A stretch of DNA of 43,168 bases, from assembly GCA_016841965.1 (NCBI GenBank), contig JAEANN010000029.1:1-43168 (forward strand), in the 5' to 3' direction. The notes below the pieces were generated by a model. That model was not told the origin of the DNA and searched no databases. It saw only the letters and a list, made by a program, of their open reading frames with translations. Origin of the DNA: Candidatus Roseilinea mizusawaensis. GTDB lineage: Bacteria; Chloroflexota; Anaerolineae; J036; Brachytrichaceae. Of the stretch, positions 3,555 through 37,151 are shown piece after piece (within the stretch, counting starts at the first letter, position 1; each line of letters opens with the position of its first letter). The translations under genes and the position numbers were made by a program.

Positions 3555-5096
3555 ATGTCAGATATCGTCAGAATCATGGTAGAAGCCTTGATCATCGTCG
3601 TTGTGGCGGTGGTATGCAGCGTTGTCTTTTATCGAATTGGACGCAAGCAATCCCGCGACGAGGGCGCAGTATTGCGGGCAGAGGCCGAGCGCACGCTGGC
3701 AGAAACTCAAGCCAAAGCGCGTGAACTGCTGGTGCAGGCCAAAGATGAGATCATCAAGCAGCGCGAGGCGGCTGAGCGAGAAACCAAAGAGCGCCGGCTC
3801 GAACTCCAGCGCGAGGAAGAGCGGCTGGCGCGCCGACGATCCGAGCTTGACGCCCAGCGCGACCGTTTGGAGCAGCGCGAAAAGAAAGCCAACCAGCGCC
3901 AGGCCCAACTGGACAAGCAAGCAGCCGATCTGGAAAAGCTACAAAAAGAGCGTGTGACGGCGCTAGAGCAGATCGCGGCTATGACGCGCGAGCAGGCGCG
4001 CGAAGAACTGCTACATGCTGTGCGCGAAGATGCTCGCAACGACATGGCGCGTGTGATTCGCGAAACCGAAGCTCAGGTGCGCGAAACCGCCGAGCAGCGC
4101 GCGAGAGAGATCGTGATCCAGGTCATGCAACGGGTGGCGACAGACACAGTTGCCGAAAAGACTGTCGCAGCAGTGGAGTTGCCGAATGAAGAGGTTAAGG
4201 GTCGCATCATTGGCCGCAATGGCCGCAACATCCAAGCCTTCGAGCAGGCTGCCGGCGTGGATGTGATCGTCGATGACACGCCCGATACGGTGACCGTGTC
4301 ATGCTTTGATCCGGTTCGGCGCGAGGTCGCCCGGCGCGCGCTCGAGGCGCTGGTGCGCGATGGCCGCATTCACCCCCAACGCATCGAGAAGACGCTGGAG
4401 GACGCCCGACGCGATGTAGAGCGCATCATGTGGGAAGAAGGCGAGCGGGCCACTGTGGAAGCAGGTGTGCCCAATTTGCCCACCGAGATCATCAAGACGC
4501 TGGGCCGGCTGAAGTATCGCACTAGCTATGGCCAGAATCAGTTGTTTCATGCGGTTGAAGCAGCGCGCTTAGCCGGGCTGCTGGCGTCTGAACTCAAGGC
4601 AGATGTCAAAGTGTGTAAAGCCGGCGCCTTGCTGCACGACTTGGGCAAAGCCCTGGATCGTGAGAATGAAGGCACGCATGTGCAGCTTGGGGTGGAGATG
4701 CTGCGTCGCTTTAACATCAATCCCAAGATCATCCATTGTGTCGAGTCGCACCATCACGATGTACCCCAGGAAACAGTGGAGGCAGTAATCGTTGAGATTG
4801 CAGACGCCATCAGCGGTTCGCGACCCGGTGCGCGCCGCGAGACGCTGGAGAACTACGTCAAGCGCGTTCGCCAACTCGAAGACACCGCCAAGTCATTCCC
4901 CGGCGTATCCGAGGCGTATGCTATCCAGGCCGGACGCGAAGTGCGCATCATCGTCAAGCCCGAGCAGGTAGACGATCTGGCCTGTATCCAGCTCAGCCGG
5001 GATGTTGCCCGCAAGATCGAGGAGACAATGGAGTATCCCGGCCAGATCAAAGTCACGGTCGTGCGCGAGACCCGCTCCGTCGAGTACGCCAAGTAA
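3555..5096 (+). CDS. rny: Ribonuclease Y
   Basis: A 513-residue, membrane-anchored endoribonuclease that starts mRNA decay. In order: one transmembrane helix (about residues 9-26); a long, highly charged Glu/Arg/Gln-rich coiled coil (about 30-200); a KH RNA-binding domain with GRIIGRNGRNIQAFE (about 217-231); and an HD metal-dependent phosphodiesterase domain with LLHDLGKALD and the downstream ESHHHD. The C-terminal RNase Y domain ends in YPGQIKVTVVRETR. Length and domain order match the family. AGGA precedes ATG at 3555. It is convergent with lysS and separated by a strong hairpin terminator. Confidence 0.96.
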   Translation: MSDIVRIMVEALIIVVVAVVCSVVFYRIGRKQSRDEGAVLRAEAERTLAETQAKARELLVQAKDEIIKQREAAERETKERRLELQREEERLARRRSELDAQRDRLEQREKKANQRQAQLDKQAADLEKLQKERVTALEQIAAMTREQAREELLHAVREDARNDMARVIRETEAQVRETAEQRAREIVIQVMQRVATDTVAEKTVAAVELPNEEVKGRIIGRNGRNIQAFEQAAGVDVIVDDTPDTVTVSCFDPVRREVARRALEALVRDGRIHPQRIEKTLEDARRDVERIMWEEGERATVEAGVPNLPTEIIKTLGRLKYRTSYGQNQLFHAVEAARLAGLLASELKADVKVCKAGALLHDLGKALDRENEGTHVQLGVEMLRRFNINPKIIHCVESHHHDVPQETVEAVIVEIADAISGSRPGARRETLENYVKRVRQLEDTAKSFPGVSEAYAIQAGREVRIIVKPEQVDDLACIQLSRDVARKIEETMEYPGQIKVTVVRETRSVEYAK

Positions 5097-15340: not shown

Positions 15341-15656
15341 CACAACTGAATCTTGCAACAACGACGAACAAGAGGAGTAGGCGGCATATTGCCCCAACAG
15401 GGAGCGCGGGTCGCAGACTGAGAGTCCGCGCAGGAGAGCAACCGCCGAAGGTCGCTTGGGAGTTGGTCGGGTGAAGCGCACATCTAGCTGTGTTAGCTCG
15501 ATCCGGGTGCGCCCGTTAGCGCGCCAGAGTGTGCGTACAGCCCGCAATAACTCGCGGTGTCTGCGCGCAAAGTTCGGTGGTACCGCGCGAAGCGCAACTG
15601 TAAACGACAGCGCCTTCTCGTCCGATATCGGTTGGATGAGAGGGCGCTTTTGTTTT
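15341..15656 (+). ncRNA. T-box riboswitch leader of valS
   Basis: Key elements appear in the right order: AGGAGTAG at 15373-15380 at the base of Stem I; a GC-rich Stem I with CTGAGAG; GAAGGTC at 15447-15453, where GTC is the likely valine specifier codon; the near-invariant T-box core GGTGGTACCGCG at 15576-15587; and an intrinsic terminator at 15609-15655. Uncharged tRNA-Val would pair with the specifier and, through its 3' end, with the T-box bulge, favouring the antiterminator and letting valS be read. The specifier position is inferred from its GAA context, not from a folded model. Confidence 0.9.
15609..15655 (+). terminator. T-box-controlled terminator
   Basis: AGCGCC and TCTC on the left pair with GAGA and GGCGCT on the right, followed by TTTTGTTTT. 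It competes with the antiterminator that contains the T-box core. Confidence 0.85.
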
Positions 15657-15754
15657 GGATTTCTGAGTTTGGATTGTGGATTGGAGATGCGTCTTGTCGA
15701 GGTTGATCCACAATCTCAGATCAAAAATCTAGAATCCCAAATCCAAAATCGAAG
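15654..15754. repeat. Inverted pair of 7-nt-periodic arrays between T-box and valS
   Basis: The left array (15654-15688) has five units of form NNNNGAT, e.g. TTTGGAT, TGTGGAT and TGGAGAT, with one variant TTCTGAG. The right array (15706-15754) has seven units in exact register: ATCCACA, ATCTCAG, ATCAAAA, ATCTAGA, ATCCCAA, ATCCAAA, ATCGAAG. The arms are complementary in blocks that differ by whole 7-nt units, with a 17-nt spacer between. The valS start codon follows three bases after the array. Confidence 0.9.
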
Positions 15755-15756
15755 AC

Positions 15757-18609
15757 ATGGCAACACAACTCCCTAAATCCTATGACCCACAGTCGGTAGA
15801 AGATCGTCTGTATCGCTGGTGGGAAGAGAACGGCTATTTCAAGCCGGAGTCTCAGCTTTACGTGCGCCAGAATGAGCCGAAGTTTGTCATTACCATCCCG
15901 CCGCCAAATGTCACCGGCACACTGCACATGGGTCACGCGCTCACTTCGGCCATCGAGGACCTGATGACGCGCTATTACCGCATGAAAGGTGCGCGCACGC
16001 TGTATGTGCCCGGCACAGACCATGCCGGCATTGCCACACAGAGCGTGGTCGAGAAGAAGCTGGCCAAAGAAGGCCGGCGTCGCCAAGACATGTCACGCAG
16101 CGAGTTTCTGCACGAAGTGTGGGCCTGGAAAGACTACTCGCATCAAATCATCACGCGCCAGCAGAAGAAGCTGGGTATCTCTGCGGACTGGAGCCGCGAG
16201 CGCTTCACCCTCGATGAGGGGTTGAGCCGGGCGGTGCTGACTGCCTTCAAGCACCTGTACGACAAAGGCCTAATCTACCGCGACACCCGCATGATCAACT
16301 GGGATCCGGTGCAACTCACCAGCGTTTCTGATCTTGAAGTGGAGTTCGAGGATGAAGGCGAGCCGGGCTTTCTGTGGACGATCCGCTATCCGCTGCAAAC
16401 CAATCGCTGGGAGGGGCCGCAACACGCCTGGGGCAGCGGCCGCTGGGCCGAGGGGGCGACAGAATGGATTACGGTGGCGACCACACGCCCCGAGACGTTG
16501 TTAGGGGATACGGCTGTGGCCGTCAATCCGGAAGATGACCGCTATCAATACAAGCTGGGCTGCCAGGCAGTCTTGCCGGTTATTGGACGGGTGATCCCTA
16601 TCATTGCCGATACGACAGTTGATATGGCCTTTGGCACCGGCGCAGTGAAGATCACGCCGGCTCACGACTTTGCCGACTATGACATGGGCAAGCGCCACCA
16701 TCTGCCTTTTGTCGAAGTGATGGATCCCACGGCGCGCATGAACGAGAACGCCGGCCCCTATCAGGGCCTCGACCGCTTTGAATGCCGCAAGCGCATCGTG
16801 GAGGACCTGAAAAAAGAAGGGCTGTTGGTCAAGGTGGAGGACTATCGCGTGCGGTTGGGCCGGGGCCAGCGCAGTGGCGCTGTCATCGAACCGCGCATTT
16901 CCATGCAGTGGTTCTGCAACGTGAAGGACATGGCTGCCATGGCTGCCCAGGCCGTGCGCGATGGGCGGGTGCGCATTGTGCCCGATCGCTTTGAGAAGAC
17001 CTGGTTCCACTGGCTCGACAATATCCGCGATTGGTGCATCAGCCGGCAGTTGTGGTGGGGGCATCAGATTCCCATTTGGTATGTTGATCAAGACAGTCTG
17101 CGTCGGGCTGCTGAGGATCGACAGCATCGAGCAGATGGCGCCGAACCGCCTGCGCAATTCTGTGCCATGAACGAGCAGGAAGCCTATGAGCAGGCGCGCG
17201 CCGTCTATGGGCCGGATGTCAAGCTGGTTCAGGATCCTGATGTGTTGGACACGTGGTTCTCATCTGGCTTGTGGCCTTTCAGCACACTGGGCTGGCCAGA
17301 TGACACCCCAGACATGCGCGCCTATTACCCAACTACCATGCTTGAGACCGGCTACGACATCCTTTTCTTCTGGGTGGCGCGCATGGTGATGATGGGCCTT
17401 GAACTGACCGGCCAGCCCCCTTTCAACGTGGTCTATCTCCACGGCCTGATTCGCACCGCCGACGGTGAAAAGATGTCCAAGTCCAGGCCGGACAAGCTTG
17501 TAGACCCGCTTGACATGATCGAGACCTACGGCACGGACGCGCTGCGGTTTTATCTGGTAACGGCCGGCGCGCCGGGCGGCGACATCAAGATGGATGTCAA
17601 GATCATAGATGGCAAGAAGCGTGTCGAGCGCATCGAGGGCGCGCGCAACTTTGCTAACAAGCTGTGGAACGCGACGCGCTACGTGATCGGGCGCGTCGAT
17701 GCGTTTGCACAGAACAGATTACAGACAACAGAGGACAGATTACAGACGACCGATCGCATGGTGAATGCGTGGATTCGTGCGCGCACGAACCAGGTGGTTG
17801 TCGACACGCGCCGGCTGATGGACGACTATCAGTACGGCGAGGCCGGCAAGTTGCTCTACGAATTCGTGTGGAGTGATTTCTGCGACTGGTACATCGAGCT
17901 GTCCAAACTGAGCAAGTCGCCTGAGACGGTTGCTACGCTGGCCCACACAACCGACGTGATTCTGCGCCTGTTGCACCCGTTCATGCCCTTTGTGACCGAG
18001 GAGCTGTGGCAGCATCTGAAGCGGGCAATGCCGGCCAATCTGCCTGGCGCGCCTGATCTGTCGTGGCCGGCGCTGATGCTGGCGCCGTATCCACAGCCTG
18101 CGCCGGCAGACCACCAACCGGATGACGCAACGGACGCGCTGCGGGTTGTGCCGGCTTTGCAAGAAGTCATTCGCGCCATTCGCAACGCGCGCGCAGAGCA
18201 CACTGTAGATGTGGGCAAGCGCATCCCGGCGGTCATCAGCGCCGGATCGCTGGCCGGCGCGTTCGAAACCCAGCGCGAAGCTATTGTGACTCTGGCGCGT
18301 GTCGATGCCGGCGCGCTGACTATCGCTGAATTTGCCCCGCCGCCGGACCACAAGGCCATCACCTATGCCCTGGGCGAAGTTACCGTGTACTTACCCCTGT
18401 CTGGCCTGATCGACCTCGATCAAGAACGCAAGCGGCTGGCCGGAGAACTGGCCGAGCTGGAAAAGGCCATTGCCCGCAGCGAGAGCTTGCTGAACGGCGA
18501 TTTTGCGCGGCGCGCGCCGGCCAATCTGGTGGAAAAGGAGCGCGCCAGACTGGCCGAGGCAACCCTCAAGCGCGACCAAATCCGTGATCGGCTGGCCCAA
18601 CTGCGATAG
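15757..18609 (+). CDS. valS: Valyl-tRNA synthetase
   Basis: A 950-residue class Ia ValRS, which charges tRNA-Val and edits threonine. Visible motifs are the HIGH-type PPPNVTGTLHMGHAL (about residues 48-62), the CP1 editing domain with TTRPETLLGDTAVAV, WFSSGLWPFSTLGWP, and GEKMSKSRPDKLVDP (about 569-583). The anticodon-binding helical domain starts near DRMVNAWIRARTN, and a C-terminal coiled-coil arm with RKRLAGELAELEKAI closes the protein. Between the catalytic core and the anticodon domain (about residues 652-664) lies a Gln/Thr-rich insert, QNRLQTTEDRLQTTD, encoded by a 7-nt repeat array. ATG at 15757 is the family start. Expression is controlled by the T-box just upstream. Confidence 0.97.
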   Translation: MATQLPKSYDPQSVEDRLYRWWEENGYFKPESQLYVRQNEPKFVITIPPPNVTGTLHMGHALTSAIEDLMTRYYRMKGARTLYVPGTDHAGIATQSVVEKKLAKEGRRRQDMSRSEFLHEVWAWKDYSHQIITRQQKKLGISADWSRERFTLDEGLSRAVLTAFKHLYDKGLIYRDTRMINWDPVQLTSVSDLEVEFEDEGEPGFLWTIRYPLQTNRWEGPQHAWGSGRWAEGATEWITVATTRPETLLGDTAVAVNPEDDRYQYKLGCQAVLPVIGRVIPIIADTTVDMAFGTGAVKITPAHDFADYDMGKRHHLPFVEVMDPTARMNENAGPYQGLDRFECRKRIVEDLKKEGLLVKVEDYRVRLGRGQRSGAVIEPRISMQWFCNVKDMAAMAAQAVRDGRVRIVPDRFEKTWFHWLDNIRDWCISRQLWWGHQIPIWYVDQDSLRRAAEDRQHRADGAEPPAQFCAMNEQEAYEQARAVYGPDVKLVQDPDVLDTWFSSGLWPFSTLGWPDDTPDMRAYYPTTMLETGYDILFFWVARMVMMGLELTGQPPFNVVYLHGLIRTADGEKMSKSRPDKLVDPLDMIETYGTDALRFYLVTAGAPGGDIKMDVKIIDGKKRVERIEGARNFANKLWNATRYVIGRVDAFAQNRLQTTEDRLQTTDRMVNAWIRARTNQVVVDTRRLMDDYQYGEAGKLLYEFVWSDFCDWYIELSKLSKSPETVATLAHTTDVILRLLHPFMPFVTEELWQHLKRAMPANLPGAPDLSWPALMLAPYPQPAPADHQPDDATDALRVVPALQEVIRAIRNARAEHTVDVGKRIPAVISAGSLAGAFETQREAIVTLARVDAGALTIAEFAPPPDHKAITYALGEVTVYLPLSGLIDLDQERKRLAGELAELEKAIARSESLLNGDFARRAPANLVEKERARLAEATLKRDQIRDRLAQLR
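17716..17750. repeat. In-frame 7-nt repeat array inside valS
   Basis: Five adjacent heptamers follow the pattern AGANNAC: AGATTAC, AGACAAC, AGAGGAC, AGATTAC, AGACGAC. They encode the RLQTTEDRLQTTD stretch. Confidence 0.9.
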
Positions 18610-18869: not shown

Positions 18870-21125
18870 TTACTGTGTTGTGTTGACCCGCTCCAGCGCA
18901 TCTAGCAGTCGTTCTGGCGTCACCGGCAACTGATTCACCCACACGCCGGTGGCGTCGTGAATGGCTGCCACAACTGCTGGGGCGACCACCAGCAACGGCA
19001 TCTCGGCCATGCCGCGAATGCCCATCGCCCCGTGCGGGTCCGGGTTCTCCACCACCACCGACTCGACCACATCCGGGATATCCATCACCGACGGGATGAG
19101 GTAGGTGCTGAGATGTTCGGTCAGCACATGCCCGTCGCGCTGCACGAAGTTTTCCAATGCCGTCCAACCTAGCCCCATGACGACACCGCCTTCGATCTGG
19201 CCCACCACTTGCTGCGGGTTGATCGCTTTGCCCACATCATCGGCGCACACCAGCCGCAAGACGCGCACTTGACCGGTTTCTGTGTCTACCTCGACTTCGG
19301 CGCTTTGCGCCACGTAGCCATACGTAATATTCGGATCGGCTGCGCCGGTGTCGGGGTGCATGGCGCTGGTGGGTGGGGGGCGATAGATATAGTGCGCGCG
19401 GGCCGGGCGCTCTTCGTCCTGCCACTTTTCCAGCGCTGCATGGGCTGCGCCGAAGATGGCGTGTGATGCCATGAACGTCATGCGCGAGGCCGAGGCCGAC
19501 CCGCTGTTGCCGCTGCTGGCCGTGTCGCTGGCGACGAGTTCAATCTTCTCCACCGGCAGCCGTAACGCCTGGGCCGCCACTTGAACGAACACAGTATGCG
19601 CGCCCTGGCCACAATCAGCCCCGGCGTGATAGACCACTGCACGCTCGATCTCTGTGTGACCGTGCAACTCGACAGTAGCCTCGCAGCTTTCTGGTGCGCC
19701 GAACGAAAAGCCCACGTTTTTGTGCCCGCAGGCAAAGCCCCGCCCGACTCTCGATTTTGGATTTTGGATTTTGGATTTTGGGTTGGATGCAGGATTGGAC
19801 TGGATGCGTGCGGCGCACTGCTGGATCACCTCGGCGATGGTGCAGCCAGGTGGAATGGGGGTGTTGTTCACGGTCAGGCTGCCGTCACGCAGCGCATTTT
19901 TCAAGCGCAGTTCGACCGGATCCATCTTCAGCGCAGCGGCCAGTTTGTTCATCTGCGTCTCGGCCACAAAGAGCGACTGTGGCGCACCGAAGCCGCGAAA
20001 TGCGCCGGTGGGCAGATTATTGGTGACTACGGTTTGTGAATCGATAGCCACGTTGGGGATGTCATAAGGCCCGACGGCCATCACCGTGGCATTGCCCAGC
20101 ACTTTTGCGCTGGTGTAGGCATAGGGGCCGGCGTCGGACATTAACCGCACCTGTGCTGCCACTAACGTGCCATCGCGCTTCGCCCCCAGCCGAGCATGAA
20201 ACCACATCGGGTGGCGCTTGTGATGGCCGATGATGCTCTCTTCGCGTGACCAGATGATCTTGACCGGCCTTCTCAACTTCCAGGCCGCCAGCGCCAGGAT
20301 GATCTGCACGCTCATGTCCTCGCGCCCGCCGAACGCGCCGCCAATAGCCGGGTAGATTACCCGCACCTGATCCAGCGGCAGGTCGAGTGCATGGGCGATC
20401 TGCTGTTGATCTTCATGCGTCCACTGTCCGGCCACGATTACCGTCACCCGGCCTTGCTCGTCGAGGTAACCCAGGCCTGCTTCGGGTTGCAGATAAGCGT
20501 GTTCTTGTGCGCCGGTGAAGTAGGTATCTTCGACGACGACGTCGGCCTGTGCGAAGCCGGCTTGCACATCACCTTTGCGGACGCGGTAGTGTTTAATCAC
20601 GTTGCCGGGGTAGTGTGGATGCACCTGTAGCGCCCCCGGTTGGATGGCTTCGTGCATCGAGGTGATGGCCGGTAGGTCCTCGTATTCCACCCGGATCAGC
20701 TCGCGCGCGTGGGCTGCGATTTGCTCTGTCTCGGCCACCACCAAGGCCACCTTCTCGCCCACGTGTCGCACGACGCCGTCAAACGATTTTGCATTCTGCG
20801 ATTTTGGATTAGGAACTGATGCTGATCTGTGTTGCTCGCCGTCCCTAGTCTGATATGTGACATCGGGTCGAATCAGCACCGGCGCGTCAAAGGTGATCAA
20901 CCCGTATTCGTTTACGGGCACATCGTCGCCTGTGAAGATGGCCAGCACGCCGGGCATCGCCTGAGCGGCGCGGGTGTCAATTGCGCGCACCCGCGCATGT
21001 GGACGCTTTGACCAGAGCACTTTGGCATATGCCTGGCCGGGCAGATTGATATCACCGGGGTACAACGCTTCGCCGGTGACCTTGGGGCGCGCATCAATGC
21101 GCGGAAGTGAAATGCCGATAGCCAT
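18870..21125 (-). CDS. Xanthine-dehydrogenase-family molybdopterin-binding subunit
   Basis: A 751-residue large subunit of a molybdenum hydroxylase (xanthine dehydrogenase/CO dehydrogenase/aldehyde oxidase class). It opens with PRIDARPKVTGEALYPGDI and contains AIGGAFGGRED, PTGAFRGFGAPQ, GADCGQGAHTVFVQVAAQAL and GNSGSASASRMTF. A glutamate in GIRGMAEMPLLV lies where the catalytic base is expected. The usual FAD and 2Fe-2S subunits are not beside it, so partners must be elsewhere or in a divergent arrangement. Two insertions are repeat-encoded: one near residues 103-115 (SVPNPKSQNAKS) and one near 443-460 (NPASNPKSKIQNPKSR). Both fall between conserved blocks. The substrate cannot be inferred. 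Confidence 0.88.
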   Translation of the reverse strand: MAIGISLPRIDARPKVTGEALYPGDINLPGQAYAKVLWSKRPHARVRAIDTRAAQAMPGVLAIFTGDDVPVNEYGLITFDAPVLIRPDVTYQTRDGEQHRSASVPNPKSQNAKSFDGVVRHVGEKVALVVAETEQIAAHARELIRVEYEDLPAITSMHEAIQPGALQVHPHYPGNVIKHYRVRKGDVQAGFAQADVVVEDTYFTGAQEHAYLQPEAGLGYLDEQGRVTVIVAGQWTHEDQQQIAHALDLPLDQVRVIYPAIGGAFGGREDMSVQIILALAAWKLRRPVKIIWSREESIIGHHKRHPMWFHARLGAKRDGTLVAAQVRLMSDAGPYAYTSAKVLGNATVMAVGPYDIPNVAIDSQTVVTNNLPTGAFRGFGAPQSLFVAETQMNKLAAALKMDPVELRLKNALRDGSLTVNNTPIPPGCTIAEVIQQCAARIQSNPASNPKSKIQNPKSRVGRGFACGHKNVGFSFGAPESCEATVELHGHTEIERAVVYHAGADCGQGAHTVFVQVAAQALRLPVEKIELVASDTASSGNSGSASASRMTFMASHAIFGAAHAALEKWQDEERPARAHYIYRPPPTSAMHPDTGAADPNITYGYVAQSAEVEVDTETGQVRVLRLVCADDVGKAINPQQVVGQIEGGVVMGLGWTALENFVQRDGHVLTEHLSTYLIPSVMDIPDVVESVVVENPDPHGAMGIRGMAEMPLLVVAPAVVAAIHDATGVWVNQLPVTPERLLDALERVNTTQ
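19748..19803. repeat. 7-nt repeat array inside the molybdopterin subunit gene
   Basis: The core is four exact copies of GATTTTG at 19753-19780, continuing in register with TTTGGGT, TGGATGC, AGGATTG and GACTGGA. It encodes the NPKSKIQNPKS insert on the minus strand. A shorter related stretch occurs at about 20790-20812 in the same gene. Confidence 0.9.
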
Positions 21126-21126
21126 A

Positions 21127-21228
21127 GTCTGATTTTACGATTTTCGATTTTAGATCGAGCGATTTTGGATAGAGTGATAGACGATTGTCGTTTGTGGTCT
21201 GGGGTCTGCGATCTGGCGTCTGTCATCT
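21127..21228. repeat. Two adjacent 7-8-nt repeat arrays upstream of the molybdopterin gene
   Basis: 21130-21178 holds units of form TTTNNGA(T), mostly 7 nt with some of 8. 21194-21228 holds five units in exact register: GTGGTCT, GGGGTCT, GCGATCT, GGCGTCT, GTCATCT. The second set is the complement of the AGANNAC pattern seen inside valS. They fill the gap to the CopD-like gene. Confidence 0.85.
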
Positions 21229-21230
21229 GG

Positions 21231-22082
21231 CTACCGACTACTCTTCATCGCCCCGACAAACAACAACAGCAGCAGGCTTGTGGCGACCTCGGCATAGAGG
21301 CTGAGCCTGAAGCGGCGTGCAGCACTTTCTGCCCCGGCTCGCCCGGCTTTCAACTGCCACAGACGCAGGCGGGGTGCAATCACCTGTTGATGTAGCGCCC
21401 CAAATCCAACCAGCGCGACAGACACGATCAGCTTGGCCGCCAGCGCGCGCCCATAGTCCGTCTCGACCAGATCGCTCAAGTCGCGCACGAACGCGCCGGC
21501 CTGGATGATGCCGCTGATGCCCAGCCCTAGCACGCAGAACATGGCCAGCGCCGAGAATCGATCCACGACGTATGAGAAGCTGCCCAGCAGCGCCGGCCTG
21601 TGCGCCACGGCCGGGATCAGCACGAATGCCAGCAAGGCCACGCCACCCAGCCACAGCGCCGTCAGGGTCATATGAAACCAATCATTCAGGGTATGTGGAA
21701 TCCAGTCTGGCAGGGCGGCGCTGCGGCTCAACAGGCTTTGGGTGAGCAGCAGCGCGAGAGCCGGCACGACGATCCACGCGCCCGTTTGCTTGTCTCGCCA
21801 GACGGCGAATGCAATCGCGCTCAACAGCGCCAGTCGTGTGCCCAGTAGCCAACTAGCGCGGGCATCTTCAAGTCTTGCCGGCGCAGCCAACCAGGCCAGC
21901 CCGCTGGCCACTGCGCCGGCGATCAGCCAGCCGGTCAACCAGCGTTGTCGGGCCGCCGCAACCGCCTCAGCGAGAGGTTGGGCCGGCGCCGACTGCATCA
22001 CAATCAGCGGGACAAGCAATCCACCTGCCAACGCCGTGAACGCAATCAATGCCAGCCAGTGCACAACCAGTTGTGTTGCCAC
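21231..22082 (-). CDS. CopD-family copper-resistance-like membrane protein
   Basis: About 283 residues with roughly eight hydrophobic helices. The second half carries the CopD pattern: PHTLNDWFHMTLTALWLGGV, AHRPALLGSFSYVVDRFSAL, GISGIIQAGAFVRDLSDLVE, TDYGRALAAKLIVSVALVGF and a final helix near LLLLLFVGAMKS. CopD proteins are thought to move copper or act with CopC; the histidine and aspartate in NDWFH are candidate ligands. The open frame reaches 22280, but GTG at 22082 is chosen since the longer form would overlap the divergent histidine phosphatase gene, whose start is clear. No copC is next to it. Confidence 0.72.
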   Translation of the reverse strand: MATQLVVHWLALIAFTALAGGLLVPLIVMQSAPAQPLAEAVAAARQRWLTGWLIAGAVASGLAWLAAPARLEDARASWLLGTRLALLSAIAFAVWRDKQTGAWIVVPALALLLTQSLLSRSAALPDWIPHTLNDWFHMTLTALWLGGVALLAFVLIPAVAHRPALLGSFSYVVDRFSALAMFCVLGLGISGIIQAGAFVRDLSDLVETDYGRALAAKLIVSVALVGFGALHQQVIAPRLRLWQLKAGRAGAESAARRFRLSLYAEVATSLLLLLFVGAMKSSR

Positions 22083-22721: not shown

Positions 22722-22842
22722 GCGAAAGGGATCGGCCTTCTGGCGTGTCTTGTGCTGCGCGTGGGGAGGATCAGGAGTTCAAGCGCAGGGTCCGATCGTC
22801 AATCGTTTACGGCCAATCAGCAATTGGCAATCACGATGATCT

Positions 22843-36100: not shown

Positions 36101-36159
36101 TCGGAGTACGCAATTGCGACTCCAAAATCCCAAAGCTAAAGTCGTAAATCCAAAATCAG
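36101..36159. repeat. Hairpin plus 7-nt repeat array between ctaC and ctaD
   Basis: CGCAATTGCG is a perfect 10-bp palindrome flanked by GGAGT and ACTCC (36103-36123). From 36118 to 36159 six heptamers follow in exact register: GACTCCA, AAATCCC, AAAGCTA, AAGTCGT, AAATCCA, AAATCAG. TTTGGG upstream and CCCAAA downstream widen the inverted repeat. The last unit overlaps the end of ctaC. Confidence 0.85.
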
Positions 36160-37151
36160 CGTAGGGTTTGCAAATATGCGACCAGGTCTTCAATCTCTTG
36201 TGGTTTGAGATTCAAGTTGGGCATGGCTGTGCCGGGCTTGATAGCTTGCGGGTCATGCAACCAGTCGCGCAGATTTTCCGCGGTGTTGGGGACGACCTCT
36301 GCAATAGTGTCATAGGTGGCAAAGCGGGTCAGGCTGCGCGGCGCGACGTTGCCCTGCGCTTTTGTGCCGTCAATCGTATGGCATGACCAGCAAATGTTCT
36401 GGTTCATGAAGATGTCCTTGCCGCGCTGAGGGTCGCCGACCGCCACCCGGCCGGACACGCCGGCCGTTTGTTCCTGAAACCATCGGTTGTACTCGTCTTC
36501 GGGCAGCGCGCGCACTTTGGAGATCATCTGAGCATGCGCTACCCCGCAGAAGACATTGCATTGCCCGATGTATTCGCCCGGCGGGACGTTGAACCACACG
36601 TAGGACACCTCGCCGGGGTTGACGTACAGCATCGGCCCGAACGCCGGCATCCACCAGGCGTGAATGACATCGGCAGTAGTCATGTCGAGACGGATGGTTT
36701 TGTTGGCCGGCACAATCAGCGTCTCGTTGGCGGTTACGTTGCCGCCGGGATACTTGTATTGCCACACCCACTGCCGGCCCACAACTTCAATCACCAGATC
36801 AACTTGTTTAGCCTCTTCGATGCGCCGCAGTGCTTCCTTGTCGTTGATGTTGTGCACATGCGCCAGCGGCATCGTGGGCGACCCGCGGGCCGTCATGCGG
36901 CCAAGCGTGTCCACTGCGAACCCGAAGACGACTCCGACCACCAGGGCCGGCGCGACAGTCCAACCGATCTCAGCCGCAGTGTTGCCGTGCACCTGGTTGG
37001 GCGTTTCGTCGGCGCGACGACGGCGAAACTTGATCACCGAGAAAACGATCAGCCCTTCGACGAGGATAAAAATAATGAACGAGAGGACATACACGATCCC
37101 AAAGAGATCGTTAATCAGTCTGGCGTCATAAGACGCCGGAGGCACAAGCAC
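36156..37151 (-). CDS. ctaC: Cytochrome c oxidase subunit II with C-terminal cytochrome c (caa3 type)
   Basis: 331 residues. Two N-terminal membrane helices (about 15-40 and 66-84) lead to the cupredoxin domain with the CuA site: histidine in DVIHAWWMPAFG, then CNVFCGVAHAQM carrying both cysteines, histidine and methionine. A class I cytochrome c follows, with the CWSCH heme site and the axial methionine in GTAMPNLNL. The fused heme domain lets the enzyme take electrons without a separate soluble cytochrome. GTG at 37151 has GAGGTG about eight bases upstream. It is the first gene of the operon. Confidence 0.95.
   Translation of the reverse strand: MLVPPASYDARLINDLFGIVYVLSFIIFILVEGLIVFSVIKFRRRRADETPNQVHGNTAAEIGWTVAPALVVGVVFGFAVDTLGRMTARGSPTMPLAHVHNINDKEALRRIEEAKQVDLVIEVVGRQWVWQYKYPGGNVTANETLIVPANKTIRLDMTTADVIHAWWMPAFGPMLYVNPGEVSYVWFNVPPGEYIGQCNVFCGVAHAQMISKVRALPEDEYNRWFQEQTAGVSGRVAVGDPQRGKDIFMNQNICWSCHTIDGTKAQGNVAPRSLTRFATYDTIAEVVPNTAENLRDWLHDPQAIKPGTAMPNLNLKPQEIEDLVAYLQTLR

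Follow-up and report, generated by a model that had tools for sequence, protein, structure and literature searches.

The inverted heptamer arrays in front of valS are probably one site of a dispersed repeat family, with GATTNNN units and chiefly GATTTTG, that occupies short non-coding gaps, and probably have no part in T-box control. They lie in the 43,168-nucleotide stretch of Candidatus Roseilinea mizusawaensis DNA analysed here (the window), and the hairpin that they can form is most likely ordinary repeat DNA, not a dedicated valS switch. The idea of a T-box accessory hairpin thus appears to be a false lead. It is replaced by a general, testable pattern in which the heptamer arrays of a Chloroflexota genome border genes in a constant orientation, as has been described in Xanthomonas and Nostoc.

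The valS leader contains a genuine, intact T-box (15355-15628, + strand, including GGTGGTACCGCG), which matches Rfam RF00230 with 92.4 bits (E = 5.4e-21), slightly below the 93-bit gathering score, and is the top-scoring of six T-box candidates in the genome. Its intrinsic terminator (15610-15656, + strand) consists of arms at 15610-15623 and 15634-15647 and a T-run at 15648-15656, with a pair probability of 0.997-1.0. As the initial annotation had noted, inverted heptamer arrays are present between this terminator and the valS ATG, with five units on the left and six to seven on the right. The left array (15658-15692, + strand: GATTTCT, GAGTTTG, GATTGTG, GATTGGA and GATGCGT) lies directly 3' of the T-run. 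Counted from its first GATT, it adjoins the T-run and does not overlap it as had been proposed. A 16-base spacer (15693-15708, + strand) separates it from the right array (15709-15750), in which six units carry GATT on the - strand and AATC on the mRNA, and which is followed by GAAGAC; depending on the count, this arm holds six to seven NNNAATC units. The reported distance of 3 bases to the ATG holds if GAA is counted in the last unit, but 6 bases separate the last AATC from it. The start codon (15757-15759, + strand; gene 15757-18609) has no clear Shine-Dalgarno sequence, whose place is filled by the right array.

The two complementary blocks described earlier do exist, namely CTGAG at 15663-15667 with CTCAG at 15715-15719, and GATTGTGGAT at 15672-15681 with ATCCACAATC at 15706-15715. 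However, both need C15715, and they are out of register, so that a bulge is required. Likewise, the arms are foldable, but the "large hairpin" is a modest one: its predicted energy is -29.6 kcal/mol against -22.9 +/- 3.2 kcal/mol for dinucleotide shuffles (z = -2.1), with 8 of 200 shuffles equally good, and -9.7 kcal/mol is predicted for the array pair at 65 C. It is among the weaker of its kind here, with z values of -2.1 to -2.8 compared with down to -7.5 at other loci. When the left valS arm was combined with foreign right arms, 8 of 19 paired equally well or better. The complementarity of the valS arms is thus no greater than any two arrays of the GATT family give.

This family is widespread in the genome. 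The valS array used as a query matches 49 places, and the pattern GATTNNNGATTNNNGATT has 221 genome matches compared with 1 for the reversed pattern. In a 1.22 Mb sample we found 94 GATT arrays, compared with 2 in a reversed-sequence control; GATTTTG, GATTGAC and GATTTGG are the main units, and 7 is the commonest among tandem periods of 4 to 12. Tandem 7-bp units thus occur at many loci above chance, as in dispersed intergenic heptanucleotide repeats of the STRR type, and they are also enriched in non-coding DNA, with 55 of the 94 arrays lying in the intergenic 12% of a sample that is 88% coding. The sample holds 20 inverted pairs with arms no more than 150 nt apart, and the GATT arm comes first in every one. 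Pattern counts of pair order, in which overlapping registers are counted apart, give 41 GATT-first and no reverse pairs here, and 66 to 0 in a close relative, G001. For the family as a whole (28 genomes, 18 of them with the GATT-first form) the totals are 642 to 62, and G023, whose ATGATT-type units are nearly self-complementary, accounts for 49 of the reverse-order counts. Outside the family, a few GATT-first pairs occur in 4 of 32 genomes of the class.

The arrays follow a location rule: the GATT strand starts at a gene boundary and runs outward, and is found in sense after stop codons and in antisense before start codons. Genes were called by our own simple codon-usage method, and the counts cover about a third of this genome (1.22 Mb) and a fifth of G001. 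In this genome, 41 arrays have the 5' end of their GATT strand no more than 15 nt from a gene boundary (21 at starts and 20 at stops) and 1 has its 3' end so placed; G001 has 27 outward and 2 inward arrays (together 68 to 3; binomial p = 5e-17). Heptamers of other types in these gaps, AGTCAGT and TTGCGTA among them, also tend to have their G-strand outward, by 39 to 8. In G021, where the heptamers are mixed, polarity judged by C/G counts is weaker (11 to 3). Gaps with an array at each end are far commoner than independence would give (12 observed in this genome, Fisher p = 3e-8; 6 in G001, p = 1e-4). A short gap filled from both sides thus holds two facing arrays, that is, a hairpin.

Functional RNAs act like genes as array boundaries, and at valS it is the T-box terminator that bounds the gap on the left. 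A GATT array also lies 2 nt beyond the edge of an FMN riboswitch aptamer (C45:338660-338807, - strand; 18660-18807 of L135), pointing away from it, and an inverted heptamer pair (4130-4178) sits inside the RNase P RNA gene (RF00010, 3991-4415 of L119, contig C45) as an insertion that extends a helix near P12. A search for a further riboswitch 5' of the element at C53:22851 gave no Rfam match. Elsewhere in the window, one GATT array (21139-21159, + strand) is 13 nt from the start of the - strand gene 18870-21125 and another (36137-36157, - strand) ends at the boundary of gene 36156-37151 (- strand), both pointing away; a third (22812-22832, - strand) lies between convergent genes, close to neither edge. 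The gap at 21131-21231 is made up of several heptamers (GATTTTN, GGTCTGG), and the orthologous gap in G001 has GATTGAC and CTGACTA arrays.

Arrays also occur within ORFs, as at 19746-19787 (+ strand) inside the ORF 18870-21125 (- strand), where AATC is on the coding strand. This orientation prevails in both genomes (29 to 9 here, 28 to 5 in G001), plausibly because the AATC strand would encode a hydrophilic linker (NPKSKIQ-like) and avoid stop codons. An inverted heptamer pair around 2586-2658 of L308 (C45:130924-130987) lies within an ORF downstream of a weak T-box candidate; from its N-terminal sequence, we take this ORF to resemble leucyl-tRNA synthetase.

We compared the valS region with its orthologs. 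G001, whose ValS is 93% identical over the first 667 residues, carries an array of different units at the corresponding position (predicted -33.8 kcal/mol). In contrast, a T-box without an array precedes valS in L010 (same genus, genome G002), L011, L012, L013, L015, L016, L021 and L022. In other genera of the family the T-box is present, and valS is preceded by different heptamers or by none. Such other heptamers are found at this spot in L014, L017, L024 and L025, the last (from G019) with AAGGATR heptamers in two inverted pairs, purine-rich arm first. Where both flanks were found in this genome and G001 (29 and 39 sites, in overlapping sets), array position is often kept and unit type switched, as at C45:29134 and C45:32552, where TTTTG-type units correspond to GAC-type units on contig C13 of G001. 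G001 also carries an extra array between the upstream gene and the valS T-box (G001:C21:64381-64401, L272; 45 nt compared with 9 nt here) and an in-frame, heptamer-rich insertion in the valS ORF (L018, G001:C21:61787-61865; 145 compared with 16 nt, about 43 extra codons).

These observations are best explained by a GATTNNN family that would have colonised, and would still be remodelling, the short non-coding gaps of the genome. Slippage-type or end-joining mutation would, we infer, create the arrays and alter their length, and an array would be tolerated wherever it breaks no gene, start site or structured RNA. At valS the tolerated gap would run from the T-box terminator to the start codon. 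Facing arms are inverted and, through the consensus that they share, complementary; they give the predicted hairpin, which would sit in the read-through or processed mRNA and would not control the T-box decision. At most, the A/C-rich right array may form a ribosome landing zone that lacks a Shine-Dalgarno sequence.

Some observations nevertheless argue against a purely neutral repeat. The valS array is kept and foldable in both genomes, and mild selection for a hairpin would give the same result. That different heptamers occupy the same spot before valS in the four orthologs named above suggests that the position is repeatedly favoured. Furthermore, the arms of G001 match their own partners better than swapped ones (p = 0.005 to 0.02), hinting at co-evolution. 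This effect is small in G001, and own and swapped arms do not differ significantly in our genome (p = 0.08 to 0.56); we therefore rejected arm co-evolution as proof of function.

The initial annotation had suggested that the hairpin alters T-box read-through, overlapping the T-run or competing with the terminator or antiterminator. The hairpin does start directly 3' of the T-run. However, such tuning is extremely improbable, since the predicted pair probabilities of the terminator are at least 0.997 whether the array is there or not, the array lies past the decision point and is transcribed only after it, a GATT array adjoins only 1 of the 6 T-box candidates of this genome, the hairpin is one of the weaker of its set and many swapped arms pair as well. 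Two observations had been named that would speak against the idea, orthologous T-box leaders lacking the array and no stable fold for the arms: the first was made, including in the same genus, and the second was not, the arms folding at the energy given above. Being neither kept with nor needed in T-box leaders, the array was rejected as a T-box part. An intrinsic terminator was also considered for the hairpin and rejected, as its T-rich arm comes first and its A-rich arm last, which would be the opposite of what a bidirectional terminator needs. Alternatively, the hairpin might act after transcription, capping the 5' end of the valS mRNA after read-through or cleavage or modulating ribosome access. 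Consistent with this, in RNA that lacks the T-box the predicted fold of the array reaches the start codon and leaves the 25 nt before the ATG poorly accessible, and the array-bearing leaders (L009, L018) have no clear Shine-Dalgarno sequence, whereas L011, L012, L021 and L022 show one. The hairpin may thus affect initiation or the stability of the mRNA. Yet most orthologs have no array, the valS hairpin is among the weaker of its family, and arrays of the same family also precede unrelated genes, so that we consider a post-transcriptional role at valS unlikely; masking of the ribosome site, if any, would be a general trait of the repeat family and not specific to valS.

Two further proposals concern the origin of the arrays and not the T-box. 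An inserted MITE- or REP-like mobile element, palindromic and with its arms in a set order, could account for the invariant GATT-first order, for the association of arrays at both gap ends, and for filled and near-empty orthologous sites such as those inside valS and before its T-box in the comparison with G001; single arrays would then be decayed halves, and turnover of the units would blur any target ends. However, no common loop, ends or body, as expected of a REP or MITE, were seen by eye, and arm spacing ranges from 0 to 67 nt; the spacers of other inverted elements are unlike the valS spacer in length and sequence. Several unrelated heptamers share the polarity, and facing arrays can be about 390 nt apart (C53:64663 and 65079), making such an element quite unlikely. 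More speculatively, the polarity could reflect telomere-like end addition, in which heptamers would be added to the 3' ends of chromosome breaks in gaps before rejoining. An outward G-strand on each broken end would, once rejoined, yield exactly the GATT-first inverted pairs, but we regard this scenario as highly unlikely. The polarity may also have come about by slippage plus selection, or through a polar inserted element. The origin of the rule is answerable from closely related genomes.

With the repeat family as the preferred explanation, the valS case has a practical side: anyone who scans such genomes for hairpins, terminators or riboswitch parts will come upon these arrays, and each need not be a regulator. 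Among known systems, the T-box riboswitch (RF00230) is intact and directly upstream at valS, and the array lies outside it and forms no part of RF00230. The short tandem heptamer repeats (STRR) of cyanobacteria have unit sequences that differ from GATTNNN. Vioque is said to have described them in 1997 inside cyanobacterial RNase P RNA, and the GATT arrays resemble them in being dispersed short tandem repeats that also occur within the RNase P RNA gene, here near P12. In marine Beggiatoaceae, TAACTGA direct repeats lie upstream of start codons, with a proposed role in translation, as one nearly invariant unit in 2 to 6 copies and with a single indirect repeat (PMC4679880). The GATT heptamers share the place before start codons but, unlike TAACTGA, vary in their units and have many inverted pairs.

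The closest likeness is to the dispersed intergenic tandem arrays of GGGAATC in Xanthomonas and GGGGAYT in Nostoc, whose G-rich strand lies in sense near stop codons and in antisense near start codons, whose length and sequence differ between related species and which, in Xanthomonas, form 70 to 75 convergent inverted pairs capable of stem-loops (PMC4692102). The GATT arrays have the same strand preference at stops and starts, and their inverted pairs are convergent only (20 of 20 in the sample, 41 to 0 genome-wide). They differ in their phylum, Chloroflexota, in also bordering or lying within structured RNAs, namely the T-box, an FMN riboswitch and RNase P RNA, and in their units. These are mostly GATTTTG; the proposed G-quadruplexes need tracts of three or more G, whereas GATTTTG and GATTGAC yield none longer than GG. 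Quadruplex formation, as published, is unlikely to account for the polarity in full, because several unrelated heptamers share this polarity, most of them without such tracts. We therefore file the family under the broad dispersed heptanucleotide repeats, likened to the quadruplex-defined family and not placed in it. The location rule had already been published for Xanthomonas and Nostoc (PMC4692102); what is new here is the phylum and the type of unit.
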